The notes below the pieces were generated by a model. The model worked only from the letters and a program-made list of their open reading frames with translations. It was not told the DNA's origin and ran no database searches. Of a DNA stretch of 64,000 nucleotides, positions 30,071 to 44,287 are shown one piece after another. The position numbers and the translations under genes were made by a program. The DNA is from Phycisphaerae bacterium (lineage in GTDB: Bacteria > Planctomycetota > Phycisphaerae > Phycisphaerales > Phycisphaeraceae), in the NCBI GenBank assembly GCA_030425705.1, contig JAUHZU010000011.1:1-64000 (forward strand). The letters are read 5' to 3'. Position 1 is the stretch's first letter, and each line of letters opens with the position of its first letter.

Positions 30071-31888
30071 GTGGACCAGCAAGCGAGGGGCAGCGACACC
30101 GGCAGCGGGACCTTCGGCGGCTTCAGCGGCGCCGACCCGTACCTGCCGGTCTGCGTGGCGGAGGGAGAAGACCCGCAGACCGCCCTGGTCCGTGCGCGCA
30201 CGGACCTGGGCGACCTGCTGCTGGCCGAGAAGGTGATCACGCCCGAGCAGCTCACGAGCGCGCGCAACGTCGTCTCCAAGTCGCCGGGCAAGCGGATCGC
30301 CGACGTCCTGCTCGAACTGGACATTGATCAGGAGAAGATGCAGTCCTGCGTCGCCGGCCTGGCGGGCATGGGCTTTGAGCGGGTCACCTACGACGACATC
30401 GAGGCGCTCAAGCAGCTCGAGATGCTCGGCGGGGACTACTGCCTGAAGCACGGCGTGCTGCCGATCCGGCCGAAGGGCTCACGTCTGCTGCTGGGGCTCG
30501 TGCATACCGAAGACCTGATCGTCATCGACGAGGTACAGAATAAGCTCGGGCTGACCGTGAAGGCCGTCGTGGTCACACCCGACGATATCGCCGCGGTCGT
30601 CGAGGCCCACCGCGAGCAGGGCTCGGACGCCGACGAGATCGCTGTTGACGAGATCATCGCCAGCATCGATGAAGACGACGTCGCGCTCGTCGAGAACGAC
30701 GAGGAGGAGCTGGATCTTGAGAAGATGGCGGGCGAGTCGCCGGTCATCCGCTTTGTGAACTACCTGATCTTCAACGCGGTCAAGGAAGGCGCATCGGACA
30801 TCCACATCGAGCCGCAGGAGAAGAAGCTGCAGGTGCGTTACCGCATCGACGGTGTGCTGTTCGACGCGATGAACCCGCCGGCCCACATGAAGGCCGCGAT
30901 CGTCTCCCGCCTCAAGATCATGGCGAACCTGGACATCTCCGAGCGCCGCATCCCGCAGGACGGCCGGATCCGCGCGATGGTCCACGGCCGGAAGCTGGAC
31001 CTGCGTATGTCCACGCTGCCGATGGTTTCCGGCGAGAAGGTCGTGCTGCGTATCCTCGATACCCGGTCGATCCAGGTCGACCTGGACGACCTGGGCATGT
31101 CCGAGGACATGCTCATGATGTGGAAGAAGCAGATCGCCCAGCCGCACGGCATCGTGCTTGTCACCGGGCCCACCGGCTCGGGTAAGACCACGACGCTGTA
31201 CTCCTCACTGGCGCAGATGGATAAGAAGAAGCAGAACATCTCGACCGTCGAAGACCCGGTCGAGTACCACCTCAACGGTATCAACCAGACGCAGACGCAC
31301 GAGAGCATCGGTATGTCCTTCGCCTCCGCGCTCCGCGCGCTGCTGCGTCAGGACCCGGACGTCGTCATGGTCGGCGAGATCCGCGACGGCGAGACCGCCA
31401 AGACCGCGATCCAGGCGTCGCTCACCGGCCACCTGGTGCTCTCGACCCTGCACACCAACGACGCGCCCTCGGCCGTGACCCGGCTGATCAACATCGGCGT
31501 CGAGCCCTACCTGATCGGCTCGGCGCTCAACGCCGTCGTCGCCCAGCGGCTGGTCCGCAAGATCTGCCAGCACTGCAAGACCATGGCGACGCCCGACGAC
31601 CACATCGCCGAGCACCTGGCGATGCAAGGCATCTCGGTCGACCAACTCGCGATGGGCGAGGGCTGCGACAAGTGCCGCAACACCGGGTACTCCGGCCGTG
31701 TCGGGCTCTACGAGATGCTGATCCTCAACGACACGCTGCGCGACCGGATCGCCGGGAGCCCGAACGTCACCGAGTTCCGTCGGATGTGTGTCGAAGGCGG
31801 CATGGTGACACTCCGCCAGGACGGCTTCGCGAAGGTCGGCCGCGGCGAGACGACGGTCGACGAGGTCCTGCGGGTCACCGAGTCTTAG
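30071..31888 (+). CDS. pilB: Type IV pilus/type II secretion ATPase PilB/GspE
   Basis: A 605-residue hexameric motor. An N-terminal MshEN-like domain (about 35-190; DLGDLLLAEKVITPEQL) could bind cyclic di-GMP. The motor domain has Walker A GPTGSGKT, the Asp box, Walker B-region VVMVGEIRDGETA and the His box LVLSTLHTNDAPSA. A tetracysteine zinc module is present (CQHCK and CDKCRNTGYSGR). It uses a GTG start at 30071 with GGAGG 7 nt upstream. It is the last gene of the pil operon and is followed by a terminator. Confidence 0.94.
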   Translation: MDQQARGSDTGSGTFGGFSGADPYLPVCVAEGEDPQTALVRARTDLGDLLLAEKVITPEQLTSARNVVSKSPGKRIADVLLELDIDQEKMQSCVAGLAGMGFERVTYDDIEALKQLEMLGGDYCLKHGVLPIRPKGSRLLLGLVHTEDLIVIDEVQNKLGLTVKAVVVTPDDIAAVVEAHREQGSDADEIAVDEIIASIDEDDVALVENDEEELDLEKMAGESPVIRFVNYLIFNAVKEGASDIHIEPQEKKLQVRYRIDGVLFDAMNPPAHMKAAIVSRLKIMANLDISERRIPQDGRIRAMVHGRKLDLRMSTLPMVSGEKVVLRILDTRSIQVDLDDLGMSEDMLMMWKKQIAQPHGIVLVTGPTGSGKTTTLYSSLAQMDKKKQNISTVEDPVEYHLNGINQTQTHESIGMSFASALRALLRQDPDVVMVGEIRDGETAKTAIQASLTGHLVLSTLHTNDAPSAVTRLINIGVEPYLIGSALNAVVAQRLVRKICQHCKTMATPDDHIAEHLAMQGISVDQLAMGEGCDKCRNTGYSGRVGLYEMLILNDTLRDRIAGSPNVTEFRRMCVEGGMVTLRQDGFAKVGRGETTVDEVLRVTES

Positions 31889-39226: not shown

Positions 39227-39751
39227 CTACTGCAGGTCGCCGATGGTGACTTCGCCGGTCGGCGCGTCGAGGGTGAGGGTGATCGTCGCTCCTCCGGACG
39301 CGAGGGTGATCGTCGCGTCGGTCGCCTGGTCGAGTTGGCCGTAGATCCCAAAGCCCAACTGGTCGTCGCCGCCCACCGCGATGGACTGGAACGTGACGCC
39401 GCTGAGCTGGGCTGTGTCGGTCGTGCCGAAGCGGACGGTGTAGTCGCCGCCGCCGGCGGGGTGGGCGATAGGGGTCTCGGGGTCGGAGCTTGCCGCGACG
39501 TGGTACGCGTGCGCGGTCGTATCAAACACGATGAGGCGCGGGTCCTCGCCATGGGCGACGGCCTCGGCACGGCAGGCGTCGAGGTCCGCGGCGAGCAGCG
39601 ACGCGGCGGCGCGGAGCTTGGCGTCGTGGTTCGGCCGGAGCATGGGCATGACCATCGCGCCGGCGATCCCCAGGATGGTGACCGTGATCATCATCTCGAC
39701 CAGCGAGAAGCCGGCCGAGCGTCGCGGGGCGGGCGGAGCGGTCCACGTCAT
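39227..39751 (-). CDS. GspH/FimT-type pseudopilin
   Basis: A 174-residue minor pilin. The prepilin leader ends at G before FSLVEMMITVTILGIAGAMVM, the type III signal with the +5 glutamate, so PilD-type peptidase would cut there. A globular beta domain follows with alternating Thr/Gly-rich strands, typical of GspH/FimT. It is divergent from the three plus-strand minor-pilin genes, with 113 bp between starts. The start at 39751 is chosen because the leader PPAPRRSAG has normal length. Confidence 0.85.
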   Translation of the reverse strand: MTWTAPPAPRRSAGFSLVEMMITVTILGIAGAMVMPMLRPNHDAKLRAAASLLAADLDACRAEAVAHGEDPRLIVFDTTAHAYHVAASSDPETPIAHPAGGGDYTVRFGTTDTAQLSGVTFQSIAVGGDDQLGFGIYGQLDQATDATITLASGGATITLTLDAPTGEVTIGDLQ

Positions 39752-39864
39752 AGTGCTGTTATCGAAGCGAACGGTGGACCGCTTGAGGGGCCGGGCGGCC
39801 CGCATCTGTAGAAGGGCCCTGGGGGCCGCTTAACCCCCGTCCCGATGCCGCCGATGACCTCTGT

Positions 39865-40401
39865 ATGGAAAAAGCCGCGCCAAAGGTGCGTAAGAGACGA
39901 TCCCCCGGTGGGTTCACCTTGCTCGAGGTATTGATCGCGTCGGCGATCCTGTCGTTCGCGACGCTCGGGCTGGTGCAGGCGGTCTCGTCCGGCCAATCGC
40001 AGACACTCGACGCCCTCCGCCGGGCCCGCGCGACCGCTCTGGCGGACGCCATGCTCGAAGAGGTGCTGTCCAAGCCCGACGCGGACCCCGAAGGCGCGAC
40101 CGGCTTCGGGCCGGACACCGGCGAAGTCACCCGCGCGGCGTTCGACAACCGCGACGACTACCACGGCTACACCCAGGCCGCCGGCGAACTGACCGGGCCC
40201 GACGGCACCGCCTACCCCACGCCGTACCAGCGGTTCGAGGTCGGCGTCACCGTCGCCACCGAGACGATGGACATCGCCGCGCTGGGTGGGGAGCAGGCGG
40301 GACTACGCATCACCGTGACCGTCACCGAGCCGGGCACGACTCCGGGCTCAGGCGATGGCCGGACCTGGACGGTGACACGCTTCGTGCCGGAGAGCGAGTA
40401 G
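39865..40401 (+). CDS. PilV/GspI-type minor pilin
   Basis: A 178-residue prepilin with basic leader MEKAAPKVRKRRSPGG and cleavage before FTLLEVLIASAILSFATLGLVQ. A coiled stem (ALRRARATALADAMLEEVL) and small C-terminal beta domain follow. The LADAMLEEVL segment is characteristic of GspI/PilV-like proteins. First gene of the plus-strand minor-pilin operon; only 2 bp separate it from the next gene. Confidence 0.87.
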   Translation: MEKAAPKVRKRRSPGGFTLLEVLIASAILSFATLGLVQAVSSGQSQTLDALRRARATALADAMLEEVLSKPDADPEGATGFGPDTGEVTRAAFDNRDDYHGYTQAAGELTGPDGTAYPTPYQRFEVGVTVATETMDIAALGGEQAGLRITVTVTEPGTTPGSGDGRTWTVTRFVPESE

Positions 40402-40403
40402 CC

Positions 40404-41033
40404 ATGACCGCATTGCACCGACACACAACGATGCCGCGCCGCCGGGCTCGCGCTCGGAGGCAGCGCGGCCTGACGCTGATCGAGCTGCTGCTCGCGCTGA
40501 GCGGGACGGCGCTGATCGGCTCGGCGATCGTATCGATGCTGTTCGCCGTGTCCTACGGCACGAAGGCCGACAAAGACCTGCGCTCGCTCGTTACCAAGCA
40601 GATGACCCTGCGGGCCCGAATCGGTGCCATGATCCGCGAGTCGAGCATGGTCCTTGAGCAGGGCGACGGCTACTTGTTCCTGTGGCAGCATGATGCCGAC
40701 GAGAGCGGCCAGCCCAACCTCGACGAGATCGCGCTGCTCGAGTTTGATGCGGCAGAGCAGACCCTCACCGTGTACCGCGCCCCGGCCTCGCCATCGAGCA
40801 ACCCCGAGTACGACGCGGCGGGTGACTTTGTCTCACAGACCGCCGGCGTGAAAGGCGGGGCCAACTTCCCGGCCGAGCGATGGGCCTCGGGGGTCACGGC
40901 GTTCACGATCTCGCTGGATGACGCCGACGCGCAGTCGGCCCGGCTGGTGAGTTTCCGCCTGACGCTGGCGGCGGGGGAAGAGCGGGATACCGCGATCGGC
41001 GCGGCGGCGCTACGCAACGTGGGGGACGAGTAA
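40404..41033 (+). CDS. PilW/GspJ-type minor pilin
   Basis: A 209-residue prepilin. A long basic leader (RRRARARRQRG) precedes LTLIELLLALSGTALIGSAIV, with cleavage after the glycine. The globular part (DGYLFLWQHDADESGQPNLDEI, then ALLEFDAAEQTLTVYRAP) matches the PilW/GspJ pattern of short strands. Two-bp gaps on both sides show tight operon packing. Confidence 0.85.
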   Translation: MTALHRHTTMPRRRARARRQRGLTLIELLLALSGTALIGSAIVSMLFAVSYGTKADKDLRSLVTKQMTLRARIGAMIRESSMVLEQGDGYLFLWQHDADESGQPNLDEIALLEFDAAEQTLTVYRAPASPSSNPEYDAAGDFVSQTAGVKGGANFPAERWASGVTAFTISLDDADAQSARLVSFRLTLAAGEERDTAIGAAALRNVGDE

Positions 41034-41035
41034 TC

Positions 41036-44000
41036 ATGGCTGGCGAGACACCCCTGGACCCAGCACGGCGTGCATACCGCTCCTCCCGCCGACACACCGG
41101 CGCCGCGATGCTGCTGGTCGTGATCGCGTTGGCGGTCGCGGCGATCCTGTCGCTGACGTTCCTGCGCAGCAGCGGCCCGACGATGGCGATCGCCAGCAAC
41201 AACGACCGCAAGGCTCGGGCCCGCGCGATCGCGGAGTCGGGGCTCTCCATGGCGGTCAAGCACGTCCAGTCGTCCGCGGACTGGCGCACCGAGCACACCT
41301 CCGGCCAGTGGATGGCGGACATCCCTATCGACGGCGGGACGATCGCGGTCTACGGCGTAGACGAGGACGGCGACCTGACCGACGACAACACCGACCCGGT
41401 CCTGCTCTCGGTCGTCGCCACCTTCGAGGGGGTCACCCACCGCGTATCCGCGCGCGTGACCGCCGCGACCGGCGAATCGAAGAACCTGCTGCTGATCGCT
41501 GGCAACGGCAACTCCCCCTCTGCGACCGACCGAGAGAAGCGCGACCTGTTCGAATCCTGGGGCTACACGGTCACGGTGCTGGATGATCGCGCATCACAAT
41601 CGGCCTATGACGCCGCCTTAGTTGGCCAGAATGTGGTTTACGTGTCGGAGGAAGTCAGTTCAGGGAACGTCAACTCGAAGCTGCGGTCCACGTCGGTTGG
41701 GGTGGTGAATGATGAGCCCTTCCTGCACGACGACTTCCGCGTCTCGACCGGCCATGCAAGGCGGGACAATCGTACGACATCGATCGATATTGGCGACAAC
41801 AGCCACTACATCACCAGCGTGTTTTCTGTCGGGGTCCTGGAGATCTACACGTCCTCTGACCGTATCCGGAGCAACAGCTACACGCAGTGTGCCGGGGCCC
41901 AGACCCTCGGCGATGCCCCGGGCGGCTCGACCGAGCCGGTGCTGACGGCGGTGGAGACCGGGGCGGCACTGACCAGTGGTACCGCGGCGGGGCGGCGGGT
42001 GATGTTCCCGGCCGGTGATGGGTTCCGTGTCACCAACCTGACCGAGGACGGACTGACCCTGCTTCAGCGCGCGCTGGAGTGGGCCGCCGCCGGCACAGAC
42101 CCCGATTCCGACGAGCCGGTGCTCGTCGCGCACTACGAGTTCGACCCGGTCATGCTTGAGCCGATCCTCATCGGCCACTGGCGGCTCGACGACACGGCCA
42201 CCGGCACCGGCGGGGCGGTCCGCATCGGCGACGACCTGACCCTGGACAACAACAGCTACATCGACGCCTACAACTCCGACAACGGCGACTACGGCCCGGG
42301 GAACCGACACCTCCATGCGGACATCACCTCCAACACCACCAGCAGCAACAACATCACCATCGATGGTGGGACGGTGTACGCCGATATCCGCGTCGGCAGC
42401 GGGGCGAACCCCAATGATGTCATCCAGTACCAGAGCGGCGGGAGCATCACCGGCTCCGCGTCCGCCCAGTCCGTCAACGCCGAGATTATCAACTACGGCA
42501 CGCCGTCAGGGTTCGGCAATCACACCGGGCACGAAACCTACGATGGCGTAACGACGACATGGTCCTCCGACAAGCACTTCAACAACCTTACGCTGGAAAA
42601 CGGGGCACAAGTCCGTGTGTCCGGCGATGTCAGCGTCCGCGTCTCTGGCAACCTCACCCTCGAGGACGGCGACATCATCCTAAATCCCGGCGCTACGCTC
42701 ACTCTGTGGGTTAACAAGAACATCACGCTCGACAATGGGTCCACGATCAACGACGACACTTCTCGCCCTGGCGACCTCACGATCCTTCAGTACGGCAACA
42801 ACCGGAACCTGACGATCGATGACGGCACGATCGTCGGCGCGGTCCATGTCGCCAGCGACCTGACGATCAACAACGGCTCGGCGATCTACGGCAGCGTCAT
42901 CGCGGGCGACGACATCATCATCAACGACGGCGCGATCCATGCCGACACCGCCACCAACCCGCCCTCCGACGGTAGCTCGCTATCCCCGCCGCTCGCACGG
43001 GACGAGACCGTCCACAACAACGACGGCACGGTCAACGGCGCGCTCGGAGCGCAGGCCGGCCCGATCGGCAACGCCTTCTTCTTCGACGGCGACGACGACT
43101 ACGTCGAGTTCCCCCACCTGCCCGAGTACGCGCTCGACGGCGGGACTTTCGCCTGCTGGTTCAACACCGACACGCTCTCGGGCAGGCAGGGCTTGTTCTC
43201 CAAGGACTCGACCGATTTCGATACCGGCGGGCACTTCTCGGTGTTTGTCGAGAACAGCCGGGTCCGCGTCCGTATGCAGAGCACCTCCGCCAGCTACTGG
43301 GTCGAGTCGGGCACGATCCAGACCAACCGCTGGTACCACATCATGTTCGCCTGGGGGCCCGGCGGCATGGTCCTCTACCTCGACGGCGTCGAGGTCGATA
43401 CCCACCCGTACGTCGGCGGGCTCAGCACCAGCTCCGGCGGCACCGGCAACTTCGAGCCCATCGTGCTCGGCGGCAACGCCTGGCAGAGCGGCAACCTCGT
43501 CGCGACGCCCGTCAAAGACTTCTTCAGCGGCTACCTCGATGACCTGCGCATCTACAGCGAACGCCTTACCGCCGAGCAGGCCATCGACCTCTACAACGGG
43601 CTGGAGCCCAGCCCCCAGGCCTCCAAAGCGATCATCACCGACTCCAGCGGCTTCGGCGACCCGCTCGACCTTGGCGTCGCGGACACCTCACACGTCACCT
43701 GGGCCGACGGCGAGATGACGTTCACCGGCGAGACCATCGCCCAGTCCCTCGAGCCCGCGACCAAGATCACCGACGCCCTCCAGGCGACCGGTGAGTTCAC
43801 GGCCGTCATTCGTTTCACACCCGCCAACCCCGGCACGACCTCGATCCCGTCACGCATCTTCGGCATCGCCTCCTCTTCCGCGCAGCGCAACCTCATGCTC
43901 GGCCAGGACGGCAGCGCCTACACCGCACGACTCCGCACGACCTCCACCGGCAGCAGCGGGACCATCAACCCCGAGTTCGCGTCTGGTGATGTCCTCAGCC

Positions 44001-44287
44001 CCGCCGAGCCGGTTGTGCTGGTCATCACCTACGACGGCGCGAACCTCAAGACCTACCGCAACGCGGTCGCCGAGCTAAACCAGGCCGTTACCGGCTTATT
44101 GGACAACTGGGCTGACACGATGCCCCTGTTCCTGGGCAACGCGCTCGACGCCAGCCACCCCTGGCTCGGCACGATCGACGAACTGGCGATCTACAACCGT
44201 GCGTTCACCGCCGCACAGGCCGGATCGGTCACCGGCGACGGGACCGTCGTCACCCCCGGCAGCGTGGTCTGGGACGAACTCGACTAG
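41036..44287 (+). CDS. Giant PilX/GspK-like minor pilin with beta-solenoid and LamG domains
   Basis: A 1083-residue protein, last of the minor-pilin operon. Residues 20-45 are a PilX/GspK-like membrane helix (TGAAMLLVVIALAVAAILSL) without a classical GFTLIE site. About 60-145 is a stem with small beta part. About 149-350 is an alpha/beta domain (LLLIAGNGNSPSATDREKRD, then WGYTVTVLDD). About 400-640 holds short repeats (LTLDNGS, LTINNGS, IIINDGA) like a polymer-forming beta-solenoid. LamG/concanavalin-like folds occupy about 655-860 and 880-1060. The first LamG strand HWRLDDTATG seems to lie before the solenoid. It is a plausible pilus-tip adhesin. Confidence 0.8.
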   Translation: MAGETPLDPARRAYRSSRRHTGAAMLLVVIALAVAAILSLTFLRSSGPTMAIASNNDRKARARAIAESGLSMAVKHVQSSADWRTEHTSGQWMADIPIDGGTIAVYGVDEDGDLTDDNTDPVLLSVVATFEGVTHRVSARVTAATGESKNLLLIAGNGNSPSATDREKRDLFESWGYTVTVLDDRASQSAYDAALVGQNVVYVSEEVSSGNVNSKLRSTSVGVVNDEPFLHDDFRVSTGHARRDNRTTSIDIGDNSHYITSVFSVGVLEIYTSSDRIRSNSYTQCAGAQTLGDAPGGSTEPVLTAVETGAALTSGTAAGRRVMFPAGDGFRVTNLTEDGLTLLQRALEWAAAGTDPDSDEPVLVAHYEFDPVMLEPILIGHWRLDDTATGTGGAVRIGDDLTLDNNSYIDAYNSDNGDYGPGNRHLHADITSNTTSSNNITIDGGTVYADIRVGSGANPNDVIQYQSGGSITGSASAQSVNAEIINYGTPSGFGNHTGHETYDGVTTTWSSDKHFNNLTLENGAQVRVSGDVSVRVSGNLTLEDGDIILNPGATLTLWVNKNITLDNGSTINDDTSRPGDLTILQYGNNRNLTIDDGTIVGAVHVASDLTINNGSAIYGSVIAGDDIIINDGAIHADTATNPPSDGSSLSPPLARDETVHNNDGTVNGALGAQAGPIGNAFFFDGDDDYVEFPHLPEYALDGGTFACWFNTDTLSGRQGLFSKDSTDFDTGGHFSVFVENSRVRVRMQSTSASYWVESGTIQTNRWYHIMFAWGPGGMVLYLDGVEVDTHPYVGGLSTSSGGTGNFEPIVLGGNAWQSGNLVATPVKDFFSGYLDDLRIYSERLTAEQAIDLYNGLEPSPQASKAIITDSSGFGDPLDLGVADTSHVTWADGEMTFTGETIAQSLEPATKITDALQATGEFTAVIRFTPANPGTTSIPSRIFGIASSSAQRNLMLGQDGSAYTARLRTTSTGSSGTINPEFASGDVLSPAEPVVLVITYDGANLKTYRNAVAELNQAVTGLLDNWADTMPLFLGNALDASHPWLGTIDELAIYNRAFTAAQAGSVTGDGTVVTPGSVVWDELD

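Follow-up and report, generated by a model that had tools for sequence, protein, structure and literature searches.

Type IV filaments are capped by H-I-J-K complexes in which K is topmost; a lectin-bearing modular pilin is known to bind glycans, and the solenoid inserted in ComZ of Thermus thermophilus is thought to bind DNA (PMC9934059, PMC8179133). The protein analyzed here, P0001, is a K-type giant minor pilin of 1083 aa encoded in a 64,000-nucleotide stretch of DNA (the window). Its closest described counterparts differ from it in several respects. S. sanguinis PilC, carrying a ConA-like lectin, and PilB, carrying a vWA domain, likewise join a pilin stem to a module in a tip complex (PMC9934059, PMC8179133), and the PilC lectin module belongs to the same superfamily as the LamG domains of P0001 (PF13385 type). 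The module is appended by a short linker in S. sanguinis, whereas in P0001 the LamG domains are nested, the solenoid lies inside, and an alpha/beta domain is present in addition. The minor pilin ComZ has a large beta-solenoid insert as well (PMC8179133); there it resides in the pilin sheet, and in P0001 in a LamG within another LamG.

GspK and other K-type pilins share with P0001 the place as last gene of the cassette, the lack of Glu5 and a large extra domain; yet P0001 scores below the equivalog cut-off of GspK, and its ectodomain is made up of LamG and solenoid, not of the GspK alpha-domain. PilX/PilY1 and the MSHA MshQ-type systems also feature a large protein by minor pilins, with a strand-like tail at the C-terminus. 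PilY1 and MshQ-type proteins are separate non-pilin proteins, while stem, modules and tail are in one chain in P0001.

In the published modular pilins encountered, the modules are fused in line or inserted once, whereas the family of P0001 is doubly nested. The new type announced in the preliminary description is nevertheless too strong a term, modular pilins with ConA-like lectins and the solenoid-inserted pilin ComZ being already published (PMC8179133, PMC9934059). No mention of DUF7305, nor of LamG together with a minor pilin and an adhesin, was found in the literature searched. By analogy with the H-I-J-K, PilC and ComZ precedents a tip adhesin is most likely, and the probability that P0001, with its double nesting, is the K subunit in the H-I-J-K complex at the tip of a T4P or T2SS-like type IV filament is set at about three in four.

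The K gene, its cassette and the stem

P0001 is encoded by a single ORF (41036..44287, + strand). As judged from the sequence, the ORF is the K gene in a minor-pilin cassette of divergent H/I-J-K layout, which relatives share. Directly upstream lies the gene for a J-type minor pilin (40404..41033, +), preceded by that for an I-type, PilV/GspI-like pilin (39865..40401, +; TIGR02523 1e-6, TIGR01707 2e-6) and by the divergent gene for an H-type, GspH-like pilin (39227..39805, − strand; TIGR01708 3.2e-9). The divergent H and the I-J-K order are kept at most related loci with enough sequence. Encoded behind I and J in a cassette that also has H, and lacking Glu at mature position 5, P0001 holds the K position.

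The prepilin leader (residues 1-22; 41036..41101, +) has a predicted cleavage site between G22 and A23 and reads RRHTG/AAMLL; mature position 5 is Leu27. The cleavage context, G22/AAMLLVVIALAVAAIL, is conserved across 14 aligned sequences, G22 and A24 being conserved residues in the leader alignment. Leader and hydrophobic helix are those of a modular type IV pilin. In the AlphaFold2 model of the stem (residues 1-364), a pilin module formed by a helix (21-79) and four strands (90-141; 41096..41458, +) precedes an alpha/beta domain (149-351; 41480..42088, +) predicted to adopt a class-I glutamine-amidotransferase-like fold. The domain matches the anthranilate synthase amidotransferase chain 1i1q_B (E=3.9e-6) and thus resembles class-I glutamine amidotransferases, a likeness of fold from which no function is deduced. 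A PDB sequence search with the N-terminal part gave no match above chance. At another locus, L206, two other prepilin-type proteins carry a LamG1 domain and the alpha/beta domain, so that modules appear to move between pilins of one cassette.

The best N-terminal match is the GspK profile, which covers residues 21-96 weakly (E=1.2e-4) and scores 21.8 bits vs the 130 bits of the NF037980 equivalog cut-off. This match speaks for the main rival to the tip adhesin, according to which a protein of the same architecture would sit, as GspK, at the tip of a T2SS pseudopilus, its ectodomain capturing or pushing secreted substrates and not acting as an external adhesin. The neighbouring genes match GspH and GspI as well as PilV, the genome contains several ATPase, platform and secretin genes (14 T2SSE ATPase matches above cut-off, 16 T2SSF domain matches, 4 secretins), and a pseudopilus need not reach the cell exterior. 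However, the GspK match is far under its cut-off, glycan binding has been demonstrated elsewhere for a minor pilin with a lectin-like ectodomain, and the size and modular variation of the protein suit surface display, so that the secretion role, to be taken seriously, is regarded as unlikely. The presence of T4P/T2SS machinery in the genome counts equally in favour of a K pilin of a type IV filament. A GspE/PilB-type assembly ATPase is encoded in the same window (30071..31888, +), ~8 kb from the pilin cassette; its MshEN domain is of the c-di-GMP-binding type.

Order of nesting in the ectodomain

Five elements, all on the + strand, follow the stem: strand 1 of LamG2 (residues 362-369, VLVAHYEF; 42119..42142), strand 1 of LamG1 (377-387, ILIGHWRLDDT; 42164..42196), a beta-solenoid (392-640; 42209..42955) whose second half is DUF7305, the LamG1 body (652-855; 42989..43600), assigned by Pfam Laminin_G_3, and the LamG2 body (862-1066; 43619..44233), assigned by profile comparison. 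HYEFD stands at residue 366, HWRLDDTATG at 381-390 and DETVHNNDGTVNG at 656. Laminin_G_3 (684-848 plus one more stretch; E=1.1e-35 over 2 stretches) and DUF7305 (514-639) both exceed their gathering cut-offs, and the ectodomain reaches the profile cut-off of LamG/ConA-like domains (PF13385).

Structure prediction, a check proposed in the preliminary description, agrees with this layout. The AlphaFold2 model of residues 355-1083 (16-sequence alignment, mean pLDDT 81, pTM 0.57) has one strand at 363-368 and another at 378-382, many short strands in close succession from 394 to 637 and LamG strands from ~664, with low-confidence linkers (386-393 and 641-651) bordering the solenoid on both sides. 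The top Foldseek matches in the PDB are tandem LamG structures (laminin LG4-5, neurexin). PDB sequence searches with the ectodomain gave LamG-type matches only, and the best PDB sequence match of the solenoid is a short fibre match. Foldseek also matches clostridial neurotoxins in their receptor-binding parts, but solely through the common LamG/jelly-roll fold, which tells nothing of function; a match to TafC is due to the LamG part and far below cut-off.

Both strand phrases recur in proteins in which nothing separates them from a LamG body. Sixty homologous LamG1 domains of other proteins, chosen by motif, open with a strand of the form aromatic-x-hydrophobic, as a rule YWxL or HWxL, ~45 residues ahead of a FDGxNDY motif. 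Uninterrupted LamG2 domains occur in unrelated planctomycete proteins (L150, TDLIALYEFTEAKGDTVRDRSRAGTPIDL; also L153-L158, L160 and L174), with LIALYEF directly ahead of the body; the last domain of P0001 (862-1066) is without a local first strand. Where an insert is absent the host is contiguous: LamG1 strand 1 adjoins its body in four relatives (L083, L087, L201, L203), and LamG2 strand 1 does so in the free-standing copies of L150 and L153-L158. In P0001 the contiguous LamG1 match begins at profile position 15-16, the missing strand being 263 residues upstream, and the native LamG2 match at position 13; hence no contiguous sequence supplies strand 1 to either body.

These observations bear on a reading without any insertion, in which the two phrases would cap the solenoid as a beta-hairpin, with a complete LamG starting past residue 650. 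The phrases are short strands set 7-8 residues apart, as a hairpin would have them. Yet they are kept in relatives with no solenoid at that place, stand directly ahead of LamG bodies in unrelated proteins, and are not seen, by reading, in the solenoid-only proteins L052 and L057, and the late start of both profile matches is at odds with complete domains. This reading is considered very improbable.

The strands were assigned to the bodies by a splice test, in which each 14-residue window of P0001 was joined to a LamG body and scored against a profile derived from 51 uninterrupted LamG1 domains, none from pilin cassettes, or from eight uninterrupted LamG2 copies of other proteins. Against these profiles, to be read with the caveat that the domain sets were picked by presence of the strand-1 motif, the best of ~635 windows for LamG1 is 374-387 (+15.0 bits, z 11.3), and the best of ~846 for LamG2 is 357-370, ending VLVAHYEFD (+12.2 bits, z 13.8). 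The first phrase is the top LamG2 window in 24/24 family members. For LamG1 the second phrase comes first in 20 of them, and strand 1 of a further upstream LamG in the remaining four (L037, one L040 protein, L041, L044). The windows chosen for the two bodies therefore give a last-in-first-out order, LamG2{LamG1{solenoid}}, the nesting being shown by homology.

HYEFD and HWRLDD are alike and side by side, and the former might be a degenerate duplicate of the latter, with the solenoid as a single insertion in LamG1 and LamG2 as a strand-less tandem domain. This is hardly tenable, as the LamG2 profile, made from other proteins, chooses the first phrase and not the second in all relatives scored, the LamG1 profile prefers the second, and both phrases are conserved, with the Y of the first and the W of the second invariant in 18 sequences.

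The double nesting confirms, and extends, what had been noticed earlier. Insertion of the solenoid in a LamG on a pilin stem is borne out by the splice test and by empty-slot relatives, with HWRLDDTATG as strand 1 of LamG1 and 263 residues of DUF7305-type solenoid ahead of the point, at 652-656, where the LamG1 body takes up again. HYEFD had been recorded at its correct place as a similar phrase, but its role as strand 1 of the C-terminal LamG2 was missed, and with it the nesting of the solenoid's host in a second LamG.

Slot contents and distribution

The insert between LamG1 strand 1 and the LamG1 body measures ~263 residues in P0001 and is nearly constant in length (257-286 in 18 sequences). 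It is among the least conserved parts, with a mean pairwise identity of 0.29-0.32 vs 0.43 and 0.37 for the LamG bodies. The four relatives named above retain LamG2 strand 1, LamG1 strand 1, LamG1 body and LamG2 body, in the absence of the solenoid. In two more the place is taken by other sequences, a YWTD/DUF5050 propeller-like region in L049 (720-871) and a DUF7483 region in L062 (680-862), and the solenoid is found elsewhere in the chain. Cassette proteins with solenoid but no LamG (L052, L057), and with LamG but no solenoid (L050, L051, L128), were also encountered. Mapped on a tree built from both LamG bodies, the five states of the slot require 5 changes (minimum possible 4); the empty state needs two changes on the best tree, only one being forced by strongly supported branches.

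The architecture of P0001 illustrates a way in which bacteria may equip pili with new binding modules, and the natural empty-slot and swapped-slot relatives provide a ready series for testing how insertions in a conserved host domain diversify pilus tips. The length-setting or polymer-forming scaffold suggested in the preliminary description is unsupported and very improbable, since the bactofilin similarity of the solenoid is weak (E=0.18) and under any cut-off (12.5 vs 27.9 bits for the polymer-forming cytoskeletal profile PF04519), the insert hardly varies in length, and relatives leave the slot empty or fill it with something else. The tip adhesin proposed alongside the scaffold fares better, a tip protein being most likely and an adhesin probable by analogy.

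The same domain order, sought in other planctomycetes as had been advised, was found in H/I-J-K loci of relatives and in other Planctomycetota. Some match is present in 50 of the 61 genomes of the genus, family and order of the window (its own genome included). At class level, 17/298 genomes have an ectodomain match at E<=1e-40; in nine of these the match spans the frame with the solenoid, and in three it is a frame whose slot is empty. Among the contigs of named genomes scanned, the full frame was detected in Phycisphaeraceae, Phycisphaerae and other Planctomycetota.

Further variation was observed at single loci. In L036 and L082 an extra beta-rich domain lies beside the solenoid in the slot or replaces it, both proteins being cut by contig ends. 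A further upstream LamG bears Asp/His/Gly-rich low-complexity inserts in L042:3520-7929 and L081:4033-8211. K-type giant pilins occur as directly adjoining tandem duplicates in L040, L042 and L204.

Proposed tip arrangement and the C-terminal tail

P0001 is probably a K-type modular tip pilin and likely an adhesin, acting like S. sanguinis PilC, Thermus ComZ or a fused PilX/PilY1. The pilin helix would dock the protein atop the I-J pair at the filament tip. Each domain is set into its outer neighbour, in the loop that follows the neighbour's strand 1. The two LamG sandwiches, each tied to its insert by two chain crossings and not one, may form a stiff collar, from which the solenoid would jut as a presentation or contact surface; the concave LamG faces may recognise glycans or other ligands on surfaces. 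The loop behind strand 1 of LamG1 is a slot of exchangeable content: solenoid, propeller, DUF7483 or nothing. The sequences show the domain order, the slot variation, the cassette synteny and, by homology, the nesting; tip position, adhesion and stiffness are what we infer for the protein.

The chain ends with a WxE tail, GSVVWDELD (residues 1075-1083; 44258..44284, +). A WxE/D tail is found in the last 12 residues of 39/48 K-type pilins, i.e. proteins with this N-terminus, regardless of the modules between. Of 2794 ORFs of at least 150 residues, 109 have such a tail, duplicate loci and the K proteins themselves being counted in. Of 61 proteins that bear LamG1 but fall outside the K set as detected, 12 have the tail, and several of these are truncated K proteins. 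The last eight residues of PilY1 (LQNVYELP in M. xanthus PilY1.3) have been modelled as a strand that joins PilX (PMC11046646, PMC13190605). The spread of the tail across K pilins and the PilY1-PilX model lead to the proposal, a speculative one, that the tail supplies the pilin sheet of the same chain with a further strand and closes it, as the PilY1 C-terminus would do with PilX. In an extended form, possible but somewhat doubtful, P0001 would have three levels, pilin{LamG2{LamG1{solenoid}}}, and, with the tail closing the pilin sheet, would be a self-complemented fusion of PilX-PilY1 type licensing assembly, the loop after LamG1 strand 1 being a dedicated evolutionary plug-in slot. The tie between WxE tail and pilin module offers a sequence test for a recent proposal, in which the assembly of type IV filaments is licensed by beta-strand complementation.

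VVWDELD of P0001 and LQNVYELP may be compared with a third tail, IHWREV, which ends LamG-rich proteins encoded after five prepilin genes in Alteromonadaceae (L110, L116, L123), at loci that we take to be of MSHA/MshQ type.
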